Assembly (NCBI RefSeq): GCF_003130705.1
Contig: NZ_CP021354.1
Span: forward strand, 5,456,001-5,520,000
Source of the DNA: Rhodococcus oxybenzonivorans
Lineage (GTDB): Bacteria > Actinomycetota > Actinomycetes > Mycobacteriales > Mycobacteriaceae
Length of the DNA: 64,000 nt
Reading direction: 5' to 3'
Shown here: piece after piece, positions 7,430-53,012 of the stretch
Position numbering within the stretch: position 1 is the stretch's first letter
How the letters are laid out: each line of letters starts with the position of its first letter
The notes under the pieces: generated by a model
What the model saw: the letters and a program-made list of their open reading frames with translations, nothing else
The model's database searches: none
What the model was told of the DNA's origin: nothing
Position numbers and translations under genes: made by a program

Positions 7430-8521
7430 ATGGACGGCTTCCTCCTCTCCCGCGCCGACCGGACGTTACGCACGGTCGGCGCCCGCAGTAGATACGACTC
7501 CGCGTCGGCGGCGATCACCGCGCTCGCCGACGGTGACACCGAACTCGTCGTGGGCGCACTGCCCTTCGATCCCGCCCGTCCGGCTGCGCTAACCGCTCCC
7601 GCCTGGTCGGAAGTCACGAGCGGCCCGTGGCGGCCCCCTCGCGTGGAGCGCCTCCCGGCCGTCCGCGTGGCTCGGCAGGTACCCGAGCCGGCTGAACACG
7701 TAGCCCGGGTCGGTGCTCTCGTCGACCGCCTGCGGAGCGGCGCGCTGGGAAAGGTGGTGGCCGCGCGCAGTGTCGTCCTGGCGTCGGAGACACCGGTCGA
7801 TCCGGAGGCGTTGGCGGCGCGGCTGATTCAGTCGAACCCCCTGGCCAACGGGTTCGCCGTCGACCTCACGTCGGCCGGAGACGGTTTTCGCGGCCACAGC
7901 CTGGTCGGTGCGAGCCCCGAAATGTTGATCAGCCGTCGCGGCCGCTCGATCACTTGCCGTCCCCTCGCCGGGACCGCGCCGCGGCGCACCGATCCCGGCG
8001 CCGATGAACGCGAAGGTCGCGGGCTCCTGGACTCGACGAAGAACCTGGCCGAGCATGCGTTCGTCACCGCCTGGATCGAGGAGGTCCTCGCCCCGCTGTG
8101 CACAGAGCTGAGTGTTCCCGAGGCACCCATCCTGACGAGCACTCATGAGGTGTGGCATCTCGCGACACCGATCCGGGGGCTGTTGCGGGATCCGGCGACC
8201 GACGCACTCACTCTTGCGACACTGCTGCATCCCACCCCGGCCGTGTGCGGCACCCCTTCCGACCTGGCGCTGGCCGCCATTCGCGAGGTAGAAGGGGAAC
8301 GGCGGTTCTACGGCGGCGCCGTCGGATGGTGCGACGCGCAGGGAGACGGCGACTGGGTGGTAGCCATCCGCTGCGCCGAGATCACCGCCGACGGCCTCGA
8401 GGTGCTTGCGACCGCGGGCGGCGGCATCGTCGCCGGATCGGACCCTCGATCCGAGCTGGACGAGACGACCGCCAAGCTCCGCACCCTCCTGGGAGCGCTC
8501 GGCGTGGTCGCCGCAGACTGA
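7430..8521 (+). CDS. entC: Isochorismate synthase
   Basis: 363 residues of the chorismate-binding (TrpE/EntC) fold. Recognisable elements are GALGKVVAARS (catalytic Lys of isochorismate synthases), FRGHSLVGASPEMLISRRG, PLAGTAPRR, HPTPAVCGTP and EGERRFYGGAVGW, with the metal-binding Glu residues. It converts chorismate to isochorismate, for salicylate/DHB siderophores or menaquinone. No other siderophore or men genes lie in the window, so the pathway cannot be decided here. It shows similarity to mycobacterial EntC/MenF proteins. Confidence 0.88.
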   Translation: MDGFLLSRADRTLRTVGARSRYDSASAAITALADGDTELVVGALPFDPARPAALTAPAWSEVTSGPWRPPRVERLPAVRVARQVPEPAEHVARVGALVDRLRSGALGKVVAARSVVLASETPVDPEALAARLIQSNPLANGFAVDLTSAGDGFRGHSLVGASPEMLISRRGRSITCRPLAGTAPRRTDPGADEREGRGLLDSTKNLAEHAFVTAWIEEVLAPLCTELSVPEAPILTSTHEVWHLATPIRGLLRDPATDALTLATLLHPTPAVCGTPSDLALAAIREVEGERRFYGGAVGWCDAQGDGDWVVAIRCAEITADGLEVLATAGGGIVAGSDPRSELDETTAKLRTLLGALGVVAAD

Positions 8522-39384: not shown

Positions 39385-40053
39385 CTACTCGAGGCCCTGC
39401 TCAATGGCGTACCGGGTGAGTTCGACGCGGTTGGCCAATTGCAGCTTGCGCAAGGTGGCCTGCACGTGGTTCTCGACGGTGCGGTGACTGAGCGACAGCT
39501 TGGTTGCGATCTGCTTGGCGCTCAATCCTTTCGCGACGAAACGCAGCACCTCGGTTTCCCGCTCGGTGAGCTTCGGAACGGCGGGTCCCCGCTCATCGGC
39601 GTGCGCACTCGACATCCGGCGATACTCGCCGAGAACCAGGCCGGCGAGGCCCGGGGTGAAGACGGCCTGCCCGGCGGCGGTGGCTCGCACAGCCTCCCGC
39701 AGCTCCTCCACCGATGCGCTCTTCACGAGGTACCCGGATGCGCCGGCCTTCACTGCGTCGAGGACGTCGTCACGCTCCGACGACGCCGACAGCACGAGGA
39801 CCCGGCTGTCGGGAGACACCTCGAGCACCGCAGCGGTGGCGGTCGCCCCGTTTCCGTCGGGCAGCTGCATGTCCATGAGTACGACGTCCGGGCGCGCTGC
39901 GGCGGCGCGGCGGCCTGCGGCGGCGACGCCGTCCGCCGTCGCGACGACGGTGAACCCGGCACCCTCGAGGTCCCGGGCGACGGCGTCGCGCCACATCGGG
40001 TGATCGTCGACGACCATCACGGTGATGTGACCGCCGGCCTGCTCCTCATCCAT
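39385..40053 (-). CDS. NarL/LuxR-family response regulator (MacR-like)
   Basis: 222 residues. The receiver domain has VMVVDDHPMWRDAV (acidic pocket), PDVVLMDMQLPDG (phospho-acceptor Asp) and SGYLVKSAS (conserved Lys). The C-terminal HTH is LTERETEVLRFVAKGLSAKQIATKLSLSHRTVENHVQATLRKLQ. Start ATG 40053 overlaps the kinase gene by 8 bases; the long in-frame extension to 40224 lies within the kinase and is a shadow. Partner of the upstream histidine kinase. Output genes are not known; the adjacent DUF1707 gene is a candidate. Confidence 0.88.
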   Translation of the reverse strand: MDEEQAGGHITVMVVDDHPMWRDAVARDLEGAGFTVVATADGVAAAGRRAAAARPDVVLMDMQLPDGNGATATAAVLEVSPDSRVLVLSASSERDDVLDAVKAGASGYLVKSASVEELREAVRATAAGQAVFTPGLAGLVLGEYRRMSSAHADERGPAVPKLTERETEVLRFVAKGLSAKQIATKLSLSHRTVENHVQATLRKLQLANRVELTRYAIEQGLE

Positions 40054-41254
40054 GCTGGTCCTCTCCTTTCGGCACGCGGATCTCCCATTCGGTGCCCTGC
40101 CCGGGTTCGGTGTCGAGTTCGGCAGTCCCGCCGAGTACTCGGACCCGCCCCAGGATCGACTTCGATATTCCCATGCGCCCTTCGGCTTCCGCCTCGGCCA
40201 GTCTGCCGGGGGCGATCCCGGCACCGTCGTCGCGCACGCTGACGATCACCTCGTCCCCGAGGTCTTCGAGCAGCACGTAAGCCCTGGCTCCGGCCCCGGC
40301 ATGCTGCGCCACATTGGACAGCGCCGTGTCGACGATCGCGGCCAGTTCCGTGGCCCGTCCCCGCTCGATCGTCACCGGGTCGGCCGGCGTCGACACCGAC
40401 ACCGTGGTGCTGGCCCGGGTGCTCAGGAGGAGCCGCAAGTCGATCACCGCACCGCCCAGGTCTGCCGTCACCCCGGCGCCCTGTTCGGAGATCAGCATGC
40501 GCAGCGCCACCTCCTGCTCCCCCGCCAGATGCGCGAGCTCGGCTGCGGGACCACCGATTTCGTTTCCGCGCCGACGAACGAGGGCAAGTACCTGGAGAAC
40601 CCCGTCGTGGACTTCGCGGGCGAGGCGTTCGCGTTCCTCCGTCGCGGCTGCCAGCCGTACGGCCCGTTCCAGCTGGGCCTGCGCCCGTCTCGCCGTCGTG
40701 GTGGCAAGCCCGAGCGCAAGTCCGACGGACACCAGCACAGGCGCCGTGGCGTCACGCCACAAATCGAGGTTGACCTGGTCGCGTACCACCGCGCTCACAG
40801 TGGCCATCAGGACGCCCGATGCCATCCCCAGCCACGGCCCGCCGAAGACAGCGGCCGAGATCACCGCGTTGGTGACCCACAACGTCGTCGGCAGAGTCTG
40901 GTGGTGCTGATACCAGTCGGGGTCGGACACGAGTCTCGTCGACGCCATCAAGGCGATGACGACGAGTTGGTCCGCGATGACGATCTGATAGCGCGGTGTC
41001 TTCCCGTGCGAGAGCAGCACCGCCGAGACTCCCGACCACACCGCCATCAGCGCAACGAAGAACCAGCTCAGCCGCTGATGGGAGTAGTACTGAACGGACA
41101 CGAACTGGTAGCTGACCGCATACACCAGGGTGACCAGCCGGAACGCCTGCGCCGCACGCCACAGCGGTGCATCCGGCTGGGTGTCTCGCTCGGCGGCGGC
41201 TCGCACGGTCGGCCGGTAGTGCAGCCGAGTGCGGCGCTCATGGTCGTCGGTCAT
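40046..41254 (-). CDS. Membrane sensor histidine kinase (MacS/DUF5931 type)
   Basis: 402 residues. About five or six membrane helices (residues 30-170) are followed by a HisKA_3-like dimerisation segment, ERERLAREVHDGVLQVLALV (phospho-acceptor His), and a GHKL ATPase part with SNVAQHAG (N-box) and SVRDDGAGIAPG (D/G-box). ATG 41254 (MTDDHERR) limits the overlap with the AI-2E gene to 17 bases and is preferred over 41296. The RefSeq-style description of this architecture is 'MacS family'. Coupled with the response regulator. Stimulus unknown. Confidence 0.83.
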   Translation of the reverse strand: MTDDHERRTRLHYRPTVRAAAERDTQPDAPLWRAAQAFRLVTLVYAVSYQFVSVQYYSHQRLSWFFVALMAVWSGVSAVLLSHGKTPRYQIVIADQLVVIALMASTRLVSDPDWYQHHQTLPTTLWVTNAVISAAVFGGPWLGMASGVLMATVSAVVRDQVNLDLWRDATAPVLVSVGLALGLATTTARRAQAQLERAVRLAAATEERERLAREVHDGVLQVLALVRRRGNEIGGPAAELAHLAGEQEVALRMLISEQGAGVTADLGGAVIDLRLLLSTRASTTVSVSTPADPVTIERGRATELAAIVDTALSNVAQHAGAGARAYVLLEDLGDEVIVSVRDDGAGIAPGRLAEAEAEGRMGISKSILGRVRVLGGTAELDTEPGQGTEWEIRVPKGEDQHG

Positions 41255-42533
41255 GGGAACCGTCGGATCGAGAGTGTTGCGGTTCATCCGGTTCATCCGG
41301 TTCGTCGGGTTCCGCCGGGTAGAGGGGAACAGCGGGATCGTCGACCTCGATCGCGTCGAAGGTGGCCTCGGGGTCCCCGGACAGCAGCGAACGGACCGCC
41401 GTGTTGAGCACCGCGACGATCGGAACGGCGAGTAGCCCGCCGACGATCCCGGCGAGCACGATTCCGGTCGTGATCGCGAGAACCACCGCGAGGGGATGCA
41501 GGCGGACGGCGCGACCGAGCAACAGCGGTTGCAGCACGTGCGCCTCGAGCTGCATCACGCCGATGATGATGCCCAGCACGATCAGTGCGGTGAGAAGGCC
41601 TTTGGTGACCAGTGCGACGAGGACAGCCAGAAATCCGGTGAGGAACGCACCGACGATCGGGATGAACGCACCGATGAAGACCAGCGACGCGAGGGGAAGT
41701 GCGAGAGGCACGCCCAGGATGGCGAGTCCGGCCCCGATGCCGATGGCGTCAGCGGCTGCGACCGCAACGGTGGCGCGGACGTAACCGATGAGCGAGCCGA
41801 ACCCCTGGCTTCCGGCCAGCCGAACGCGGGGGCGGGAAGCAGCAGGCACGAGCCGGGTGACGAACTCCCAAATCTGGCTACCGCCGTAGAGGAAGAAGAT
41901 GAGAGTGAAGAGGGTCAGCAGTGCCCCGGTGAAGATCTCCCCGATGACGGTGGCCGTGGTCAGCGCACCACTGGTGAGCTGCTCGCGGTTGTCCTGGATC
42001 GACTTGACCACGGAGTCGCCGGCCTGGTGGATCTGATCCTCGCTGAAGTGGAACGGCCCACTGGTGAACCAGTTCTGGATCTGGGCGATGCTCGCCTCGA
42101 ACTGGTCGGTCAGGGCTGGAAGACCCGCGACGAACTGTTCGACCACGAACGTCATGATCCCGGCGACGACGCCGATGGACGCGACCAGGACCACCACTAC
42201 CGCCGCCGATCGGGGCACACCCTTCTCCTGCAGCCAGTCCACGAGTGGCACCAGAAGAGCCGAGGCAAGCAGTGCGAGCCCCACGGGAATGAGCACGGTG
42301 TCGAGCCTGGCGACGATGTAGCCGAGAGTCAGCAAACCGGCGAAGATGACGAGCAGGCGCCACGTCCACTCCGCCGCCACCCGCACCACCGGATGCACGG
42401 ACGCCGAGGCACGATGCCTACGTTCCGCTGTGGTCACCGGTATCGAGCCCTCGTTCGAGTTCACCTGCGGAGCGTATCGAGCTTCACCAGGTGCCGGGGA
42501 GTTCGCGCCCGAAACAGGCGTGTCCGGACCCAT
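41238..42533 (-). CDS. AI-2E family transporter/permease-like membrane protein (Rv0205-like)
   Basis: Up to 431 residues with about eight membrane helices. Family features are RLLVIFAGLLTLGYIVARLDTVLIPVGLALLASALLVPLVDWL and QLEAHVLQPLLLGRAVRLHPLAVVLA. Substrate unknown; some relatives export signalling molecules or Na+/H+. The ORF begins at ATG 42533, but GTG 42437 (VTTAERRH) starts nearer the conserved part and would leave a 148-bp gap for a divergent promoter. The acidic C-terminus has DEPDEPDEP, encoded by 9-bp repeats at about 41283-41310. Confidence 0.82.
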   Translation of the reverse strand: MGPDTPVSGANSPAPGEARYAPQVNSNEGSIPVTTAERRHRASASVHPVVRVAAEWTWRLLVIFAGLLTLGYIVARLDTVLIPVGLALLASALLVPLVDWLQEKGVPRSAAVVVVLVASIGVVAGIMTFVVEQFVAGLPALTDQFEASIAQIQNWFTSGPFHFSEDQIHQAGDSVVKSIQDNREQLTSGALTTATVIGEIFTGALLTLFTLIFFLYGGSQIWEFVTRLVPAASRPRVRLAGSQGFGSLIGYVRATVAVAAADAIGIGAGLAILGVPLALPLASLVFIGAFIPIVGAFLTGFLAVLVALVTKGLLTALIVLGIIIGVMQLEAHVLQPLLLGRAVRLHPLAVVLAITTGIVLAGIVGGLLAVPIVAVLNTAVRSLLSGDPEATFDAIEVDDPAVPLYPAEPDEPDEPDEPQHSRSDGSHDRRP

Positions 42534-42571
42534 TAGGGGATGTGTCCTGCGCTCCCGAACTTGCCCACCGC

Positions 42572-42577
42572 TAAATT
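42572..42577 (+). promoter_or_regulatory. Possible -10 for a leaderless cyclase transcript
   Basis: TAAATT, 7 bases upstream of GTG 42585. It favours 42585 over the ATG at 42540 as the translation start. Confidence 0.45.
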
Positions 42578-42584
42578 GAACGGC

Positions 42585-44099
42585 GTGCGGAAATCATATA
42601 GAGCGATCGCGGCGACGGTCCGCAGCAGGTGGCCGCTCTATATGGTCTCGATGCTCCTCGCCAATTTCATCGGTGCCATCCTGGTTTTCGCGTTCGTGCG
42701 ATATGGCGTGCCGATTCCCGAATCGCAGGCCATTATCGCCGACCGGGTGCGCAACGTTGCGATCTTCGGCGGGTATCTGGCCTTCGCCGCGGTGGTGAGT
42801 CTCACTGCGGCAGCGATGATGCTGCGGTCCGTCATCCGCTGGCAATTACGCGGCGGCCCGCCCACCCGCAGTGAACAGATGTCGGCGCTGCACGCACCGC
42901 TGCGGCAGGCGATCGTGCATCTGGTCCTGTGGATACTCGGCGGGATCATCTTCGTGCTGCTCACCATCACCGAGATGCCCGAACTGGCGGTCGCAGTGAT
43001 CGTCACCGTCTGCATGGCCGCGACCACCACGTTCGGCTTCACCTACATGCTCGGGGAACGCATTCTGCGCCCGGTGGCGGCGCGCGCCCTCAGCGAGGGG
43101 GAATTCGACCGGACCATGGCCCCCGGAGTCGGCACCCGCCTGGCGATGACGTGGGGCCTCGGCACGTTGATGCCCGTCATCGGCATCATCCTGCTCTGCG
43201 TCACACAGTTGACCACCGACCTCGTGTTCTCCCCCAACGCATTGGCCTGGGCGATCATGCTGCTGTCGATCATCGCGATCGCACAGGCCTTCGCACTGTC
43301 GATGCTGACCGCCAGCCAGATCTCCGACCCCATCAAACAGTTGCGGCGGGCCATCGAACGGGTTCAGCGCGGCGCCACCGACGTGCGGGTGGAGGTGTTC
43401 GACGGAAGCGAGATCGGACGGTTGCAGGTCGGGTTCAACCGCATGATGCGCGAATCGGACGAACGGCGGCTGCTGCGCGAACTGTTCGGTCAGCACGTCG
43501 GTGAGGACGTCGCGCGGCGGGCGCTGCAGTTCGGTACCGAACTCGGCGGCGAGACGAGGTTCGTGGCCGTTCTGTTCGTCGACATGGTCGGCTCCACCGG
43601 CGCCGCCGCGGAGCGTCCCCCGGGCGAGGTCGTGAACCTGCTCAACGAGTTCTTCCGCGTAGTCGTCGATGTGATCGACCGACACCATGGATTCGTCAAC
43701 AAGTTCATGGGTGACGCGGCTCTCGCAATCTTCGGCGCCCCGCTCGACCGCCCCGACGCCCCGACCGCCGCACTGGCGGCCGCGCGCGAGCTGAGGTTCG
43801 CGCTCCACGAGATCACCGGTCTCGACATCGGGATCGGCGTGTCCGCGGGCCTGGCCGTCGCCGGAAATATCGGTGCCGCAGAAAGGTTTGAGTACACCGT
43901 GATCGGTGACCCCGTCAACGAGGCGTCGCGCCTCACCGAGCTCGCCAAGCTTCATCCCAGCCGCGTCCTGGCGTCCACCAGCGCGCTGTACTTCGCCGAC
44001 GAGGAGGAGCAGGCGCACTGGGAGCTGGGCGAACAGGTGCAGTTACGTGGGCGTCGTCGCAACACCCATCTGGCTTGGCCGGAGGACTATCCGGAGTAA
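42585..44099 (+). CDS. Membrane adenylate/guanylate cyclase (class III) with HAMP domain
   Basis: 504 residues from GTG 42585. Six membrane helices lie in the N-terminal half. A HAMP linker follows (ISDPIKQLRRAIERVQRGATDVRVEV), then a class III cyclase domain. Catalytic residues appear intact: metal-binding Asp in VLFVDMVGST, Lys-Phe-Met-Gly-Asp in FVNKFMGDAALAIF (purine-specifying Lys, second metal Asp), and YTVIGDPVNEASRL with the transition-state Asn. It resembles mycobacterial Rv1318c-Rv1320c and Rv3645. The ATG at 42540 is in frame but sits only 6 bases from the AI-2E start codon, and the -10 at 42572-42577 makes 42585 the better start. Confidence 0.88.
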   Translation: MRKSYRAIAATVRSRWPLYMVSMLLANFIGAILVFAFVRYGVPIPESQAIIADRVRNVAIFGGYLAFAAVVSLTAAAMMLRSVIRWQLRGGPPTRSEQMSALHAPLRQAIVHLVLWILGGIIFVLLTITEMPELAVAVIVTVCMAATTTFGFTYMLGERILRPVAARALSEGEFDRTMAPGVGTRLAMTWGLGTLMPVIGIILLCVTQLTTDLVFSPNALAWAIMLLSIIAIAQAFALSMLTASQISDPIKQLRRAIERVQRGATDVRVEVFDGSEIGRLQVGFNRMMRESDERRLLRELFGQHVGEDVARRALQFGTELGGETRFVAVLFVDMVGSTGAAAERPPGEVVNLLNEFFRVVVDVIDRHHGFVNKFMGDAALAIFGAPLDRPDAPTAALAAARELRFALHEITGLDIGIGVSAGLAVAGNIGAAERFEYTVIGDPVNEASRLTELAKLHPSRVLASTSALYFADEEEQAHWELGEQVQLRGRRRNTHLAWPEDYPE

Positions 44100-45806: not shown

Positions 45807-46023
45807 GTGCCTTCGTCTTTCCTCGGCAGCCCGTCGGCCACCCCGCTAATTGATTCCCTCTGTTGACGATCAATACTTTAGAACCGTCGCTACCAAAAGT
45901 CTACAGTCTCGGCTGGAGATTTTGAGGAGATGGTCAACACGGTCCACGTCGCCCCGGATGCTGCGCCTCCGCTACGAGAGAACAAGAGTCGGCCGTGCAC
46001 GTGGGTCGCATGTGCCGCCGCAT

Positions 46024-46029
46024 TACGCT
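46024..46029 (+). promoter_or_regulatory. Possible -10 for a leaderless DUF3054 transcript
   Basis: TACGCT with six bases to GTG 46036, the same layout as before the YbhN-like gene. Confidence 0.45.
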
Positions 46030-46035
46030 GACCGG

Positions 46036-46413
46036 GTGAAGAAGTTCCTTCCCGCACTGGTCGTCGATGTCGTGCTCGTGGTCGTCTTCTGCGCAATCGG
46101 CCGCCGGAGCCACGACGAAGCCACCGCGCTGACGGGACTCGCCATCACGGCGTGGCCCTTCCTCAGCGGCCTCGCCGTCGGCTGGGTCGCGACCGTAGCG
46201 CTGTACCGCGACAAGTTCGACGCCGCGTTGATCGTGCCGACGGGGCTGCTGGTGTGGTTCTCGACACTGGTGGTCGGCATGCTGCTCCGCGTTGTCAGTG
46301 GTCAGGGCACGGCCTTCAGTTTCATCCTGGTGGCGGGCACTGTTCTGGCGGTGTTCCTTCTCGGCTGGCGTGCGGTCGCGAGAGCCGTCACGAAGGTACG
46401 CACCCCCAGCTGA
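46036..46413 (+). CDS. DUF3054 membrane protein
   Basis: 125 residues, four membrane helices: FLPALVVDVVLVVVFCAIGRRSHDE, then AWPFLSGLAVGWVATVALY, LIVPTGLLVWFSTLVVGMLL and FSFILVAGTVLAVFLLGW. Length and R-S-H-D-E after helix 1 fit DUF3054 of actinobacteria. Function unknown. GTG 46036 is used rather than the longer frame from 45850, which begins inside non-coding DNA. Confidence 0.78.
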   Translation: MKKFLPALVVDVVLVVVFCAIGRRSHDEATALTGLAITAWPFLSGLAVGWVATVALYRDKFDAALIVPTGLLVWFSTLVVGMLLRVVSGQGTAFSFILVAGTVLAVFLLGWRAVARAVTKVRTPS

Positions 46414-48771: not shown

Positions 48772-50481
48772 TCAGCTCGCCGGCTTGGCCATCTCCCGGA
48801 ACAGCATGTCGGTCATCTTCACGGCGCGGTCGCCACCGTCCGCGTCGGCAACGAGCACCGCGAAGGCGAGGTCTCCGCGGGATCCGTAGAACCAGCGGTC
48901 ATCGCCACTGGCCCCGTTCATGCCGATGAGGTCGGGGTAGCCGTTCAGCAAGGAAGCGCCGCCGCGCACCACGTTGTCCCGCATCATTGCGCGCAGCTGA
49001 TCGGTGACGTTCGCGGGAAGCGGCTGAGCCGCCACCTCGCTGGTCCCCGGCTGACCCTGCACGATCATCGGTGCGGGCGCACTGCCCCGGGCGATCGACG
49101 CCGCCACCATTGCCATTCCGAACGGTGTCACGGCGGGCAGGTCCTCGTTCTTGCGGTTCATCACCTGGTTCATTCCCGACTGGTCGGCAGTGAACACCGC
49201 GGTCTGGTGGTCGAGCCCCGGAACGTTGTAGTTCATCCCGAGTCCGAATTGGTTCCCTGCCTTCGCGATGTCCTCCATCGACAGCGACGACGGGTCGACA
49301 CCCTTCTGCAGTCCGGCGGCCTTCTTGATCAGGTCGAGGTTCGACCCGGCCGGGTAGAGACCTTGGAAGGTGATCGGCCCCTGCTCCATCGCTTGGTTGT
49401 TCTGCGCGGCGGCGAGAACGGCCCCGGTGGACGGCTGGATCGCGATGATCGAGGCCGGGGTGCCCACACTGACCACCGCTTCTTCAGCAGCCAACTGCAG
49501 CCGCGAATCCATGGTGGCGACGATGTCGGGTCCGGGTGGGCCCTGGAATCCCGCCTGCGGGATCAGCGTGCCGTTCGGATCGACGAGGTGGACGGCCCAG
49601 CCGGCGGTGGCGTCACGGTTGGCTTGCCACACCTTCCGCAGCGGGTCGAGCAGCGGAGTGGTGATGCGGCGATCCGCAGTGATCAGTTTCGGTGTCTTGA
49701 TAACCACGACCCCGGGGATGTTCAAGTCCTCCTCGAGGTACAGGTAGTCCTGATCGCGCAGGAGGACTGCGGTGACTTGCTCTCCCGGTTTCTGGGCGAG
49801 GTCGGCCATCATCGTGTCTGCCGTCACCAGCGGAGCCACCGGTTCGAGGACTTCGGCCAGGCGGCGGGTGGTCACGACAGGATCCGGCATCGTGGCCGGA
49901 TCCAAGGTGATCGCATTGATGGTCTGCTCGTTCATCAGCAGCGCACCGGCGGCGTCGAAAATCCTGGGCGGAGCGGCGTCCGTCCGGTCGTATCGGACGC
50001 TACGCCCGTTACCGAGGTCGGGCGCGAGGATCGACGGATCCCACGAGATGCGCCAGCCCACCGACAGGTGCCGCACGCCGCCCTGCACCTGATAGCTCCA
50101 GTCCTTGCCCTCACCGAAGTTCCACGCGGCACCGACGGTGAAGAACCCGGAGTCGGAACCGAGGTCCATGAACTGGGTGAGGTCGAACTGGGCGTCCTCG
50201 GGTTTCAAGCCGTCGAACATCTGCTGAATCGCCGACTCTGCGGCGTTGGGATACGAGGTGTGTGCGGCAGCGGCAGCGGCATCGCGCTCGTTCAGCGCTT
50301 CGACGAAGGAGGCGACGACCGACTTGGCGTCGGCCTCCTCTGTCGACATCACGCAGGACGCCAGAACGACCGCTGATATCACAGCCGTTATGAGGGCGAT
50401 CACGTATTTGTTGCGGCGTCCAAGCGATCGTCCATTCCCCATGTCCACCATCTTGCTTTCAGTCACATGCGTAACAAGCAC
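48772..50481 (-). CDS. Degenerate penicillin-binding lipoprotein (transpeptidase-like pseudoenzyme)
   Basis: 569 residues with the same architecture as its neighbour: lipobox VVLASC (Cys43 from this start), NTF2-like MecA_N domain (about 50-150), dimerisation part (150-300) and transpeptidase domain (300-569). The active site is lost. Where the neighbour has STFK it has SNLD (380-383), so the catalytic Lys is Asp. About 47 residues containing the SxN motif are missing between KKAAGLQKG and KAGNQFGLG. KTG has become MNG (521-523). Otherwise the domain is well preserved (TPFGMAMVAASIARGSAPAPMIV), with no frameshift, so it is probably a selected non-catalytic partner or regulator. Start could be an ATG 10 or 13 codons inside. 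Confidence 0.83.
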   Translation of the reverse strand: MLVTHVTESKMVDMGNGRSLGRRNKYVIALITAVISAVVLASCVMSTEEADAKSVVASFVEALNERDAAAAAAHTSYPNAAESAIQQMFDGLKPEDAQFDLTQFMDLGSDSGFFTVGAAWNFGEGKDWSYQVQGGVRHLSVGWRISWDPSILAPDLGNGRSVRYDRTDAAPPRIFDAAGALLMNEQTINAITLDPATMPDPVVTTRRLAEVLEPVAPLVTADTMMADLAQKPGEQVTAVLLRDQDYLYLEEDLNIPGVVVIKTPKLITADRRITTPLLDPLRKVWQANRDATAGWAVHLVDPNGTLIPQAGFQGPPGPDIVATMDSRLQLAAEEAVVSVGTPASIIAIQPSTGAVLAAAQNNQAMEQGPITFQGLYPAGSNLDLIKKAAGLQKGVDPSSLSMEDIAKAGNQFGLGMNYNVPGLDHQTAVFTADQSGMNQVMNRKNEDLPAVTPFGMAMVAASIARGSAPAPMIVQGQPGTSEVAAQPLPANVTDQLRAMMRDNVVRGGASLLNGYPDLIGMNGASGDDRWFYGSRGDLAFAVLVADADGGDRAVKMTDMLFREMAKPAS

Positions 50482-50548
50482 AACTTGCCTACGAAGGAGT
50501 TACGGTTGAGCCACAACTTATCTCGTCGAGCACGACCCGCGAACCGGT

Positions 50549-52351
50549 TTAGCGCAGAAAACGCCCCGCGGCCTGCACAGCAGGGGCCGAGCTGTCTCCT
50601 GTGGCGACAAATACGGCAAATGCGAGATCGTCCTTGATTCCGACGAACCAGCCGTGGGCCGGACCGTTACCAGACTCCGCCGTGCCGGTTTTTCCGAGCA
50701 GTCCCGGAATGTCCTGTAGCGCAGTAGCGGTACCGCCGGTCACAGTTTCACGCATCATCGTTCGCAGATCCGCGGTCACCTCGGCAGGTACCGGCGGGGC
50801 CGTCCGATCGGCAGTGCCCGGTTGCCCCGTCACGATCATGGGCGCCGGCGTGGAGCCGCGAGCGATCGACGCCGCAACCAATGCCATTCCGAAGGGGGAC
50901 GCGGTCACCTGACCCTGACCGATCGCAGATTCGACACGGGCCGCCGAGCTGTCGGCGATCGGTACGTTGCCGGTCACGGTTGTCAAACCCGGTGTCACAT
51001 AATCCACCCCGAGTCCGAACTGCAGGGCCGCGTTCTGTAGGGCATCGGCCGGAAGCCCCACAGCCAACCGGCCCATCGTGGTATTGCACGATCGGGCGAA
51101 GGCGGTGTGCAGCGGGACCTGACCAAGGTCGAATTGATCGTCGTTGGGTATCTGCCTGCCCTCGATGTTCTCGGTTCCGGGGCAGGGCAGCACGGTGTCG
51201 ATGGTGGCGGATCCGGCCTGCAGGGCAGCCGACGTCGTGACCGTCTTGAAGGTGGACCCCGGCGGGTACAGGCCGGTGAGCGCGATCGGGCCGAGCGCGT
51301 CGGCGGGAGCGTTCTGCGCGACCGCCAGCACGGCACCGGTGGACGGGCGCAGGGCGACGATCGCGGCCTGCTGCGGCATGTCCGCCAGAGCCCGCTCGGC
51401 CGCCGTCTGCATCGGGAGGTCGAGGGTGGTCGTGATGTCGGGGGCGACGGGGCCGTCCTCCCCCGCGATGCTCTCCGCCGAGCCATCGGCTGAGACCAGC
51501 TGGACGGCCCACCCGGCGGAGGCGTCCTGCCCCTGCTGCCACAGGTCGGCGAGTCCGGACAGCGTCGGGGATGCGAGTGCCTTGTCGGTGCTCAGCAGTC
51601 GCGCCTGCGGGACGAGCGTCACCCCTGGAAGTGCAGTCAGTTGCGCCTCGATGGGTGCCAGATCCTCCGCGCGCAGACTGATCGCGGTGACGGGTTTGCC
51701 CTGGGCATCGGCCACATCCTTCTGCAGTGACGCCGGGGTGATCGTGGGCGCGAGGGGGGCGAGCAGCGCTGCCACTGCGGCGGTGTCCGCACCCTGGTCC
51801 AGGTTCACCAGAGTGACCACTTGCTCCGTGAGAATCGGCGCGCCAGACGACGACAGCACCTTCGGCGGCCGCCCGGTCGTCGGGGTGTAGCGAACGGTCG
51901 TGTCTTCCGTGAGCCCGGGCGCAAGCACGGCCGGATCCCAGGTGATCTTCCAGTCGTCACCCTGCTTCGCCGCGTTGCCACTCGTGCTGTACTTCCACTC
52001 CTGCCCCTCGGCGAAGGGCCAGGTGACCTCCATCGTGAAGGTTCCGGCGTCGTCGCCCGACTCCTGCACGTCGGTACGGGCGAAGGTTCCGTCCTTGTTG
52101 CCCAGCCCGTCGTAGAGGGCGGTGATGGCCGCCGATGCGGCGGCGGGGTCGGTGGTGAGGGCCGCGGCTGCCTGGACGTCGTCGGCATTGAGAGCATCGA
52201 CGAACTCCTGGCTGACGGTATCCGGCTGATCAGGTCCGAAGAGGCCGCAGGCGGACAGCGTCATCGCGAGGACGGCTATGCCGGCGGTGGCCTTACGCCT
52301 GGGGCCGGTGGGACTGTGACGAACTGTTGAGGTGCGCACGTAGTCGATCAT
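50549..52351 (-). CDS. Penicillin-binding lipoprotein, class B-type transpeptidase with MecA_N domain
   Basis: 600 residues. Lipobox LSAC (Cys35), an NTF2-like MecA_N domain (about 42-155), a PBP dimer domain, and the transpeptidase with all three motifs: S366-T-F-K369 in YPPGSTFKTV, S421-C-N423 in ARSCNTTMG, and K554-T-G in LLGKTGTAE. It would cross-link peptidoglycan outside the membrane; relatives include mycobacterial PBP-lipo (Rv2864c). The degenerate copy starts 67 bp downstream, suggesting tandem duplication and co-transcription. Divergent from the gene at 52446. Confidence 0.9.
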   Translation of the reverse strand: MIDYVRTSTVRHSPTGPRRKATAGIAVLAMTLSACGLFGPDQPDTVSQEFVDALNADDVQAAAALTTDPAAASAAITALYDGLGNKDGTFARTDVQESGDDAGTFTMEVTWPFAEGQEWKYSTSGNAAKQGDDWKITWDPAVLAPGLTEDTTVRYTPTTGRPPKVLSSSGAPILTEQVVTLVNLDQGADTAAVAALLAPLAPTITPASLQKDVADAQGKPVTAISLRAEDLAPIEAQLTALPGVTLVPQARLLSTDKALASPTLSGLADLWQQGQDASAGWAVQLVSADGSAESIAGEDGPVAPDITTTLDLPMQTAAERALADMPQQAAIVALRPSTGAVLAVAQNAPADALGPIALTGLYPPGSTFKTVTTSAALQAGSATIDTVLPCPGTENIEGRQIPNDDQFDLGQVPLHTAFARSCNTTMGRLAVGLPADALQNAALQFGLGVDYVTPGLTTVTGNVPIADSSAARVESAIGQGQVTASPFGMALVAASIARGSTPAPMIVTGQPGTADRTAPPVPAEVTADLRTMMRETVTGGTATALQDIPGLLGKTGTAESGNGPAHGWFVGIKDDLAFAVFVATGDSSAPAVQAAGRFLR

Positions 52352-52445: not shown

Positions 52446-53012
52446 ATGAAGAACGCCCAGGCCCCCGGAGACCGCCGTTTCGGCCGTCCCGGCGGATGGC
52501 AGCAAGCAGATGTTCCCGATGCGAGCGACGCGGCCGACTGGTTCGCCGGCCGACTGCCCGACGACTGGTTCACCGGGCCGGCCACCGTCGAGGTCGACCG
52601 TGAAGAGATCGTCGTCGTGGGAGAGCTGCCTCCCGTCGAGTCCGGCGACTCCGCCTCGGAGGCCGCCGTCGACGGGCGCATCGCACGCTTCCGCGAGAGC
52701 ACTCGCGCCGACCGAATGCGCATCGCACACGAGGCCGAACTCCGCTACGGACGGAAGGTGGCGTGGGGAGTCACCCTCGACGGCCGCCGCTCGTTGTTCA
52801 CTCACCTCGCCGTCCCGGTGATGACCCGACTTCGCCAGCCCGAACGCAAGGTTCTCGACACACTGGTCGACGCCGGGGTGGCGCGATCTCGCTCGGACGC
52901 CCTGATGTGGACGGTTCGACTCGCAGGCAAGCACAGTGAGCAGTGGCTCACCGAACTGCGCGAGGCGATGGCGAAGGTGGACGAACTGCGCGCGGACGGC
53001 CCGCAGATTTAA
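52446..53012 (+). CDS. Conserved actinobacterial protein of unknown function
   Basis: 188 residues, soluble. The N-terminal half is acidic (FAGRLPDDWFTGPATVEVDREEIVVVGELP). The middle ARFRESTRADRMRIAHEAELRYGRKVAWGVTL is charged helical. The end, VLDTLVDAGVARSRSDALMWTVRLAGKHSEQWLTELREAMAKVDEL, looks like a ribbon-helix-helix or short helical bundle. No catalytic motif recognised. GAGGACGCC precedes ATG 52446. Divergent from the PBP gene across 94 bp. A small DNA-binding or adaptor role is possible but unsupported. Confidence 0.7.
   Translation: MKNAQAPGDRRFGRPGGWQQADVPDASDAADWFAGRLPDDWFTGPATVEVDREEIVVVGELPPVESGDSASEAAVDGRIARFRESTRADRMRIAHEAELRYGRKVAWGVTLDGRRSLFTHLAVPVMTRLRQPERKVLDTLVDAGVARSRSDALMWTVRLAGKHSEQWLTELREAMAKVDELRADGPQI

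Follow-up and report, generated by a model that had tools for sequence, protein, structure and literature searches.

Class B penicillin-binding proteins (PBPs) of the MecA_N type are known from several bacteria. PBP-lipo (Rv2864c/MAB_3167c) of mycobacteria is described as a hypothetical lipoprotein and a MecA_N class B PBP (PMC9170245, PMC3987819); in M. abscessus, an S364A allele is reported to fail to rescue, so that PBP-lipo needs its catalytic serine there (PMC9170245). The serine mutant S309A of B. subtilis PBP 2B still supports division, with PBP 3 supplying the activity (PMC5656894); although dead as an enzyme, this class B PBP has a structural role. Complexes of SEDS glycosyltransferases with class B PBPs are described as having an interface between the pedestal and extracellular loop 4 (ECL4) (PMC8078798). 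Here, we describe a tandem gene pair in a stretch of 64,000 nucleotides (hereafter the window) from Rhodococcus oxybenzonivorans (NZ_CP021354.1, positions 5,456,001 to 5,520,000), which comprises a live MecA_N-type class B PBP, ACT, and its degenerate homologue, the pseudo-PBP PSE. PSE is almost certainly a maintained protein that does not act as a transpeptidase. Like PBP-lipo it is a MecA_N class B PBP, but it lies in a separate clade and has no catalytic triad. Its model matches S. aureus PBP2a, E. faecium PBP5 and B. subtilis PBP3 over the whole length; those proteins are active transpeptidases, whereas PSE is without the triad and without 47 residues of the catalytic domain. The likeness to PBP 2B S309A is one of proposed function, not of sequence, and that protein is an engineered laboratory mutant, whereas PSE evolved naturally. 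Pseudoenzymes and MecA_N PBPs are both already known; a clade-wide natural pseudo-PBP seems to be new, and literature searches of titles and abstract openings, with most subscription journals outside their coverage, found no published description naming such a family.

Both genes lie on the minus strand, ACT first and PSE after it, and their products (open reading frames of 600 and 569 residues) align end to end at 40% identity. ACT (50549..52351), a lipoprotein, carries STFK (51245..51256), SCN (51083..51091) and KTG (50684..50692). PSE is listed at 48772..50481 with a GTG start; its real start is probably downstream, at M11 (~50451), as its relatives in the database begin at positions corresponding to M11 or M14. 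A lipobox, LASC with Cys43 (50353..50364), is followed by the MecA_N (NTF2-like) domain (residues 52–159; 50005..50328), a linker or pedestal region whose boundary we set (residues 160–325; 49507..50004) and a degenerate transpeptidase domain (residues 326–562; 48796..49506). Aligned with ACT, PSE has SNLD in place of SxxK (residues 380–383; 49333..49344), a gap of 47 positions that removes SxN (around residues 394–399; 49285..49302) and MNG in place of KTG (residues 521–523; 48913..48921), in a frame that is open throughout. The alignment thus bears out what the initial annotation had read from the window, namely an intact upstream PBP followed by a stop-free copy with all three motifs lost. 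A third MecA_N PBP is encoded elsewhere in the same genome (8.01 Mb, four contigs), at 3.82 Mb. By PSE identity (95%), the nearest named relative is Rhodococcus tibetensis.

The loss of the catalytic motifs extends to every orthologue compared. We tabulated 47 orthologues, i.e., the window copy, those of 40 of 42 named loci and those of six of the 25 loci L006–L030; left out were L073 (PSE in three pieces), L076 (the whole locus frameshifted) and the other 19 of L006–L030, which by their identity values we took for near-duplicates or fragments. None of SxxK, SxN and KTG is intact in any of them (0/47), whereas all three are kept in the 45 live copies from the same loci, the live copy being absent from the Nocardia loci L069 and L070. 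The column of the former catalytic serine holds Ser in 18, Gly in 11, Thr in 10, Asn in seven and Ala in one; that of the lysine holds Asp in 35, Glu in eight and Ala in four, and Lys is never retained; the SxN columns are a gap in 47 of 47. These columns bear directly on the suggestion, made in the initial annotation, of an antibiotic decoy. A beta-lactam decoy or sensor would be in keeping with the place of PBP2a among MecA_N-type PBPs and with the electronic Gene Ontology (GO) annotation of a Tsukamurella copy, but with the acylated serine not conserved, the lysine gone and the SxN segment missing, covalent trapping is not expected, and we regard this role as very improbable. The GO term concerned, 'response to antibiotic' on L154 (NZ_LR134454.1, a record labelled plasmid 12), is itself unsupported, since the active site is missing; PSE calls into question database names that present such sequences as penicillin-binding, transpeptidase-domain or antibiotic-response proteins.

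Among the 320 database homologues listed, fragments included (at most 120 per search, from 7,992–7,999 candidates scored each), a full triad is found only in P0318 and P0320, which are ordinary PBPs by score. The remaining 318 are without the triad, and four of them (P0157, P0158, P0182 and P0215) show an SxxK-like string with no SxN or KTG. As a candidate active MecA_N class B PBP, PSE has the MecA_N domain and the transpeptidase fold but fails in SxxK, SxN and KTG; homology to an enzyme, the loss of its catalytic residues and purifying selection (below) are all present. By its sequence, PSE is a pseudoenzyme.

In two trees that also include ACT, third-copy sequences and outgroups, PSE forms one side of a branch supported at 100/100, and PSE and ACT together are separated from all else at 100/99 in both. 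Both are unrooted, with midpoint display; 15 rows were thinned from one of them (the careful tree below) and 19 from a further, quick tree. The ACT clade, the second MecA_N lipoprotein PBP of Rhodococcus and Nocardia, is the group nearest to PSE and shares with it the order MecA_N, linker, transpeptidase; it differs in its intact motifs and in constraint that peaks in the catalytic domain. The third copies, which we infer to be PBP-lipo, and PSE form distinct groups, each at 100/99 or better, and PSE lies outside the PBP-lipo clade. Long branches meet within PSE (L082 with the Gordonia copies), which leaves its basal branching order uncertain. The computed trees show a single origin of PSE, and the loss of its motifs is ancient and common to the family. 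The quick tree contains a further group of live MecA_N PBPs, with three intact motifs, outside both the ACT and PBP-lipo clades (L155–L170, L115 and L116); its members are copies from 16 Gordonia, one Tsukamurella and one putative Mycobacterium genome.

PSE is retained across Nocardiaceae, Gordoniaceae and Tsukamurellaceae. Loci of Nocardia (L078, identical to L069), Gordonia (L085, the same as P0121) and Tsukamurella (L082) were assigned through matches to named sequences; the genus of 26 genomes termed g2 is inferred to be Mycobacterium, and genomes termed g4 are placed only as Rhodococcoides-like. A match to PSE is present in all 41 sampled Gordonia genomes (50–100% identity to a Gordonia query, no stop flagged within the match) and in all 39 sampled Nocardia genomes (44–47% to the window PSE). 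One stop is flagged in 17 of the 39 Nocardia matches; in the inspected copy, L078, it precedes the reading frame, as it presumably does in the other Nocardia copies, whose frames are open over 563–568 residues. Among 28 genomes of the genus Rhodococcus, including that of the window, 26 carry PSE, 25 of them in full and one partially at a contig end; the two others are G014, where ACT abuts TauE, and G016, which is 74% complete. PSE also occurs in Tsukamurella and, by name among the database matches listed, in Williamsia, Skermania, Aldersonia and Antrihabitans. Two matches are present in one genome (G015, C1 and C2), and a Nocardia genome (G271, C34) has a second PSE-like match of 44% identity. 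Among the matches listed, with five to six candidates scored per genome, PSE was found in none of the 26 g2 genomes. In eight of these a second, closer homologue is present, and the three motifs were read in each of the eight loci (L086–L093); we equate these copies with the 'distal duplication of PBP-lipo' described for environmental mycobacteria (PMC3987819), which they fit.

Broken copies are rare, with one candidate, L073 (Prescottella defluvii CP121458.1, 5001–6710), where PSE is in three frame-shifted pieces and ACT is open, owing to a sequencing error or a real lesion, and the damage to the whole locus in L076. Rates were compared in 39 species, leaving out L073, L076 and six incomplete ACT rows. 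Pooled over 16 species-disjoint close pairs, the ratio of nonsynonymous to synonymous differences per site (pN/pS) is 0.103 for PSE and 0.123 for ACT; Nei–Gojobori medians from 185 close pairs with dS < 1, which are non-independent and near saturation where distant, are 0.147 and 0.183. A decaying pseudogene would accord with the break in L073 and the absence of PSE from G014 and g2, but a pN/pS of about 0.10 and the retention of the gene in the genera sampled leave that reading refuted by the rate test and virtually without credit. The selected, non-catalytic job proposed in the initial annotation is upheld by the single clade, the low pN/pS and the stop-free Gordonia matches, and neither of the signs of decay it had named, a dN/dS near 1 in sister strains and frequent nonsense mutations, is seen in the species pairs and loci compared.

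The constraint is distributed differently in the two proteins. In the same 16 pairs, pN/pS for PSE and ACT is 0.075 and 0.166 in the MecA_N domain, which evolves more slowly in PSE, 0.106 and 0.143 in the linker, and 0.114 and 0.089 in the transpeptidase domain. Of the 16 pairs, PSE has the lower pN in 15 when MecA_N is compared and in 14 when the linker is, and its transpeptidase domain has the higher pN in 11; the sign by per-pair dN/dS is less even than by pN. Two pairs in which the ACT ratios are high (L056/L057 and L040/L041) account for part of the pooled contrast. Without them, the remaining 14 give 0.058 and 0.104 (MecA_N), 0.096 and 0.127 (linker) and 0.108 and 0.072 (transpeptidase), so that the domain contrast stays, and the overall difference (0.093 for PSE, 0.096 for ACT) vanishes. 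Mean identities over the 741 non-independent pairs of the 39 species read 0.666 for PSE and 0.553 for ACT in MecA_N, 0.674 and 0.602 in the linker and 0.571 and 0.771 in the transpeptidase domain, and the differences among 14 representatives run in the same direction (PSE minus ACT, +0.129, +0.071 and −0.204). These computations show that PSE has been under long-term purifying selection and that constraint has moved from the transpeptidase domain to MecA_N and the linker, as would be expected of a protein that now works through its N-terminal and pedestal surfaces.

A conservation scan of 80 PSE, 49 ACT and 17 third-copy sequences gave 53 PSE positions conserved at 93% or above, of which 28 lie in the linker, and 13 conserved positions specific to PSE, of which 10 lie in the linker, including R166, R271, R272, Q313 and G314. 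In a mainly Gordonia alignment, TNG occupies the former KTG site in 41 of 46 rows, so the strand remains under constraint at this point. The nearly fixed polar residues R166, R271, R272 and Q313 and the recurrent TNG could be taken as signs of a new catalytic activity at another site, but a conserved set of Ser, Cys and His was not seen among the near-invariant columns, where no dedicated active-site search was made, and we consider a new activity highly unlikely.

Predicted models of PSE preserve the class B PBP fold. Their top Foldseek matches over the whole length are PBP2a, PBP5 and PBP3 (E about 1e-25), and the full-length superposition on these is loose, with a root-mean-square deviation of 7–11 Å. 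Pfam detects MecA_N (PF05223) in both proteins of the window (32.3 bits for PSE, cut-off 22) and in 38 of 39 members of alignment A2. The Pfam Transpeptidase family scores 124.6 bits with ACT and 22.4 bits with PSE (cut-off 22.1), where the best stretch is residues 344–399. The lipobox that the initial annotation assigned to PSE stands for the window copy but not as a conserved feature; a pattern search recovers it in 27 of 47 orthologues, the cysteine pattern being missing from the other 20 (L017, L050–L052, L055–L067, L071, L074 and L075), so lipidation is no conserved property of PSE. The type of membrane anchor seems to have changed among the orthologues.

We propose that PSE is a dead class B PBP that acts through its N-terminal and pedestal surfaces on a partner in wall synthesis, and give this reading a probability of about 0.5. 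PSE would be anchored in the membrane, face away from the cytoplasm and serve the peptidoglycan-synthesis machinery as a docking or regulatory subunit. The MecA_N domain and the pedestal would present the surfaces that bind a conserved partner, for which a SEDS glycosyltransferase (RodA/FtsW) or some other protein of synthesis or division is the most plausible candidate, and the degenerate transpeptidase domain would be a scaffold; PSE would thereby tune synthesis without cross-linking. The analogy for partner binding comes from the PBP 2B serine mutant and the pedestal–ECL4 interface of SEDS complexes. The more specific form, a naturally evolved, clade-wide subunit without transpeptidase activity that belongs to a SEDS or other peptidoglycan synthase and regulates the wall by way of MecA_N and pedestal contacts, is put forward tentatively, as an idea with rather less than even odds. 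The engineered PBP 2B revealed that a class B PBP can do structural work besides cross-linking, and evolution appears to have made the same split in PSE, which offers a natural route to mapping non-catalytic surfaces on MecA_N-type PBPs.

Several observations weigh against this proposal. The partner of PSE is putative, and the SEDS step is reached by analogy. Given the requirement of M. abscessus PBP-lipo for its catalytic serine (PMC9170245), working in the absence of catalysis is not a general property of related proteins. PSE is not universally essential, being absent from Rhodococcus G014 and from the 26 g2 genomes. None of its conserved neighbours is named as a peptidoglycan gene. The linker holds 28 of the 53 conserved positions anyway, so that 10 of 13 specific ones is a mild excess. 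In rate covariation over only 15 loci, the partial r is 0.39 between PSE and ACT and 0.54 between PSE and AbmR, the product of a neighbouring gene, but 0.71, higher than either, for the control pair ABC-F/PTR2.

The same MecA_N and linker surfaces could instead bind wall fragments, making PSE a peptidoglycan or muropeptide sensor that signals rather than docks to a synthase. PBP2a, which the PSE model matches, has an allosteric site, the comparison in point for the binding of wall fragments, and the concentration of constraint in MecA_N and the linker would suit a sensor as well. No signalling gene is constant among the neighbours in the loci compared, and we hold a sensor to be unlikely.

The initial annotation had suggested that PSE might be a partner or allosteric regulator of the active copy next to it. 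Of the 47 loci tabulated, 45 contain ACT as well, and in Rhodococcus-type genomes 36–96 bp separate the ACT stop from the PSE open frame in 38 of 39 loci measured (395 bp in L055); pairing with ACT could be an extra role specific to Rhodococcus. The pair is conserved beyond a single species, as anticipated, but its adjacency is confined to Rhodococcus-type genomes. In the loci fetched from Nocardia, Gordonia and Tsukamurella, ACT and PSE are not neighbours; in Nocardia G210 they lie ~107 kb apart, and an ACT-like second match, by score class, is present in 36 of 39 Nocardia genomes. An ACT-clade gene was not found in 41 Gordonia genomes by identity search and trees, nor in the one Tsukamurella genome searched. 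Beside PSE, 25 of the Gordonia genomes have only a homologue of 35–39% identity, of PBP-lipo type where placed, and the other 16 have an additional live MecA_N PBP of 46–49% with three motifs in 16 of 16. By identity, these 16 had been taken as candidates for ACT; they were rejected, as all lie outside the ACT clade (quick tree; six on the careful tree) and cluster with the one g2 and one Tsukamurella sequence of the further live group. Rhodococcus G014 has ACT with PSE cleanly absent. PSE is therefore not dependent on ACT, which is a sister paralogue and not an obligate partner; as a general function, obligate pairing in a heterodimer or allosteric regulation of ACT is improbable.

The surroundings of PSE vary with the genus. 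A divergent gene for AbmR, an ATP-binding transcription factor (52446..53012, plus strand; NF058631, 270.6 bits), flanks the PBP pair in the window; ACT and usually AbmR are upstream of PSE in Rhodococcus loci, and AbmR adjoins PSE in Nocardia G210 too (L141). A DUF3054 membrane protein gene (45850..46413, plus strand) serves as a synteny marker. In the loci fetched from Gordonia, Nocardia and Tsukamurella, it directly adjoins PSE in tail-to-tail orientation, and an LPG-synthase-TM gene comes next if the contig extends far enough; TauE and PTR2 separate PSE from DUF3054 in most Rhodococcus loci (exceptions L049 and L072). An MMPL gene is upstream in two of three Gordonia loci, and Nocardia loci have a cyclase and an AI-2E gene. 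Three of the four g2 regions fetched (L150, L152 and L153) have LPG-synthase-TM and DUF3054 together with AI-2E and MMPL and no PSE, and the fourth has DUF3054 alone; this arrangement fits a loss of PSE there, and a gain elsewhere would also be possible. In the window, 40046–44099 holds genes for a DUF5931 histidine kinase, an AI-2E transporter and a HAMP-cyclase, which accompany the PSE locus in Nocardia.

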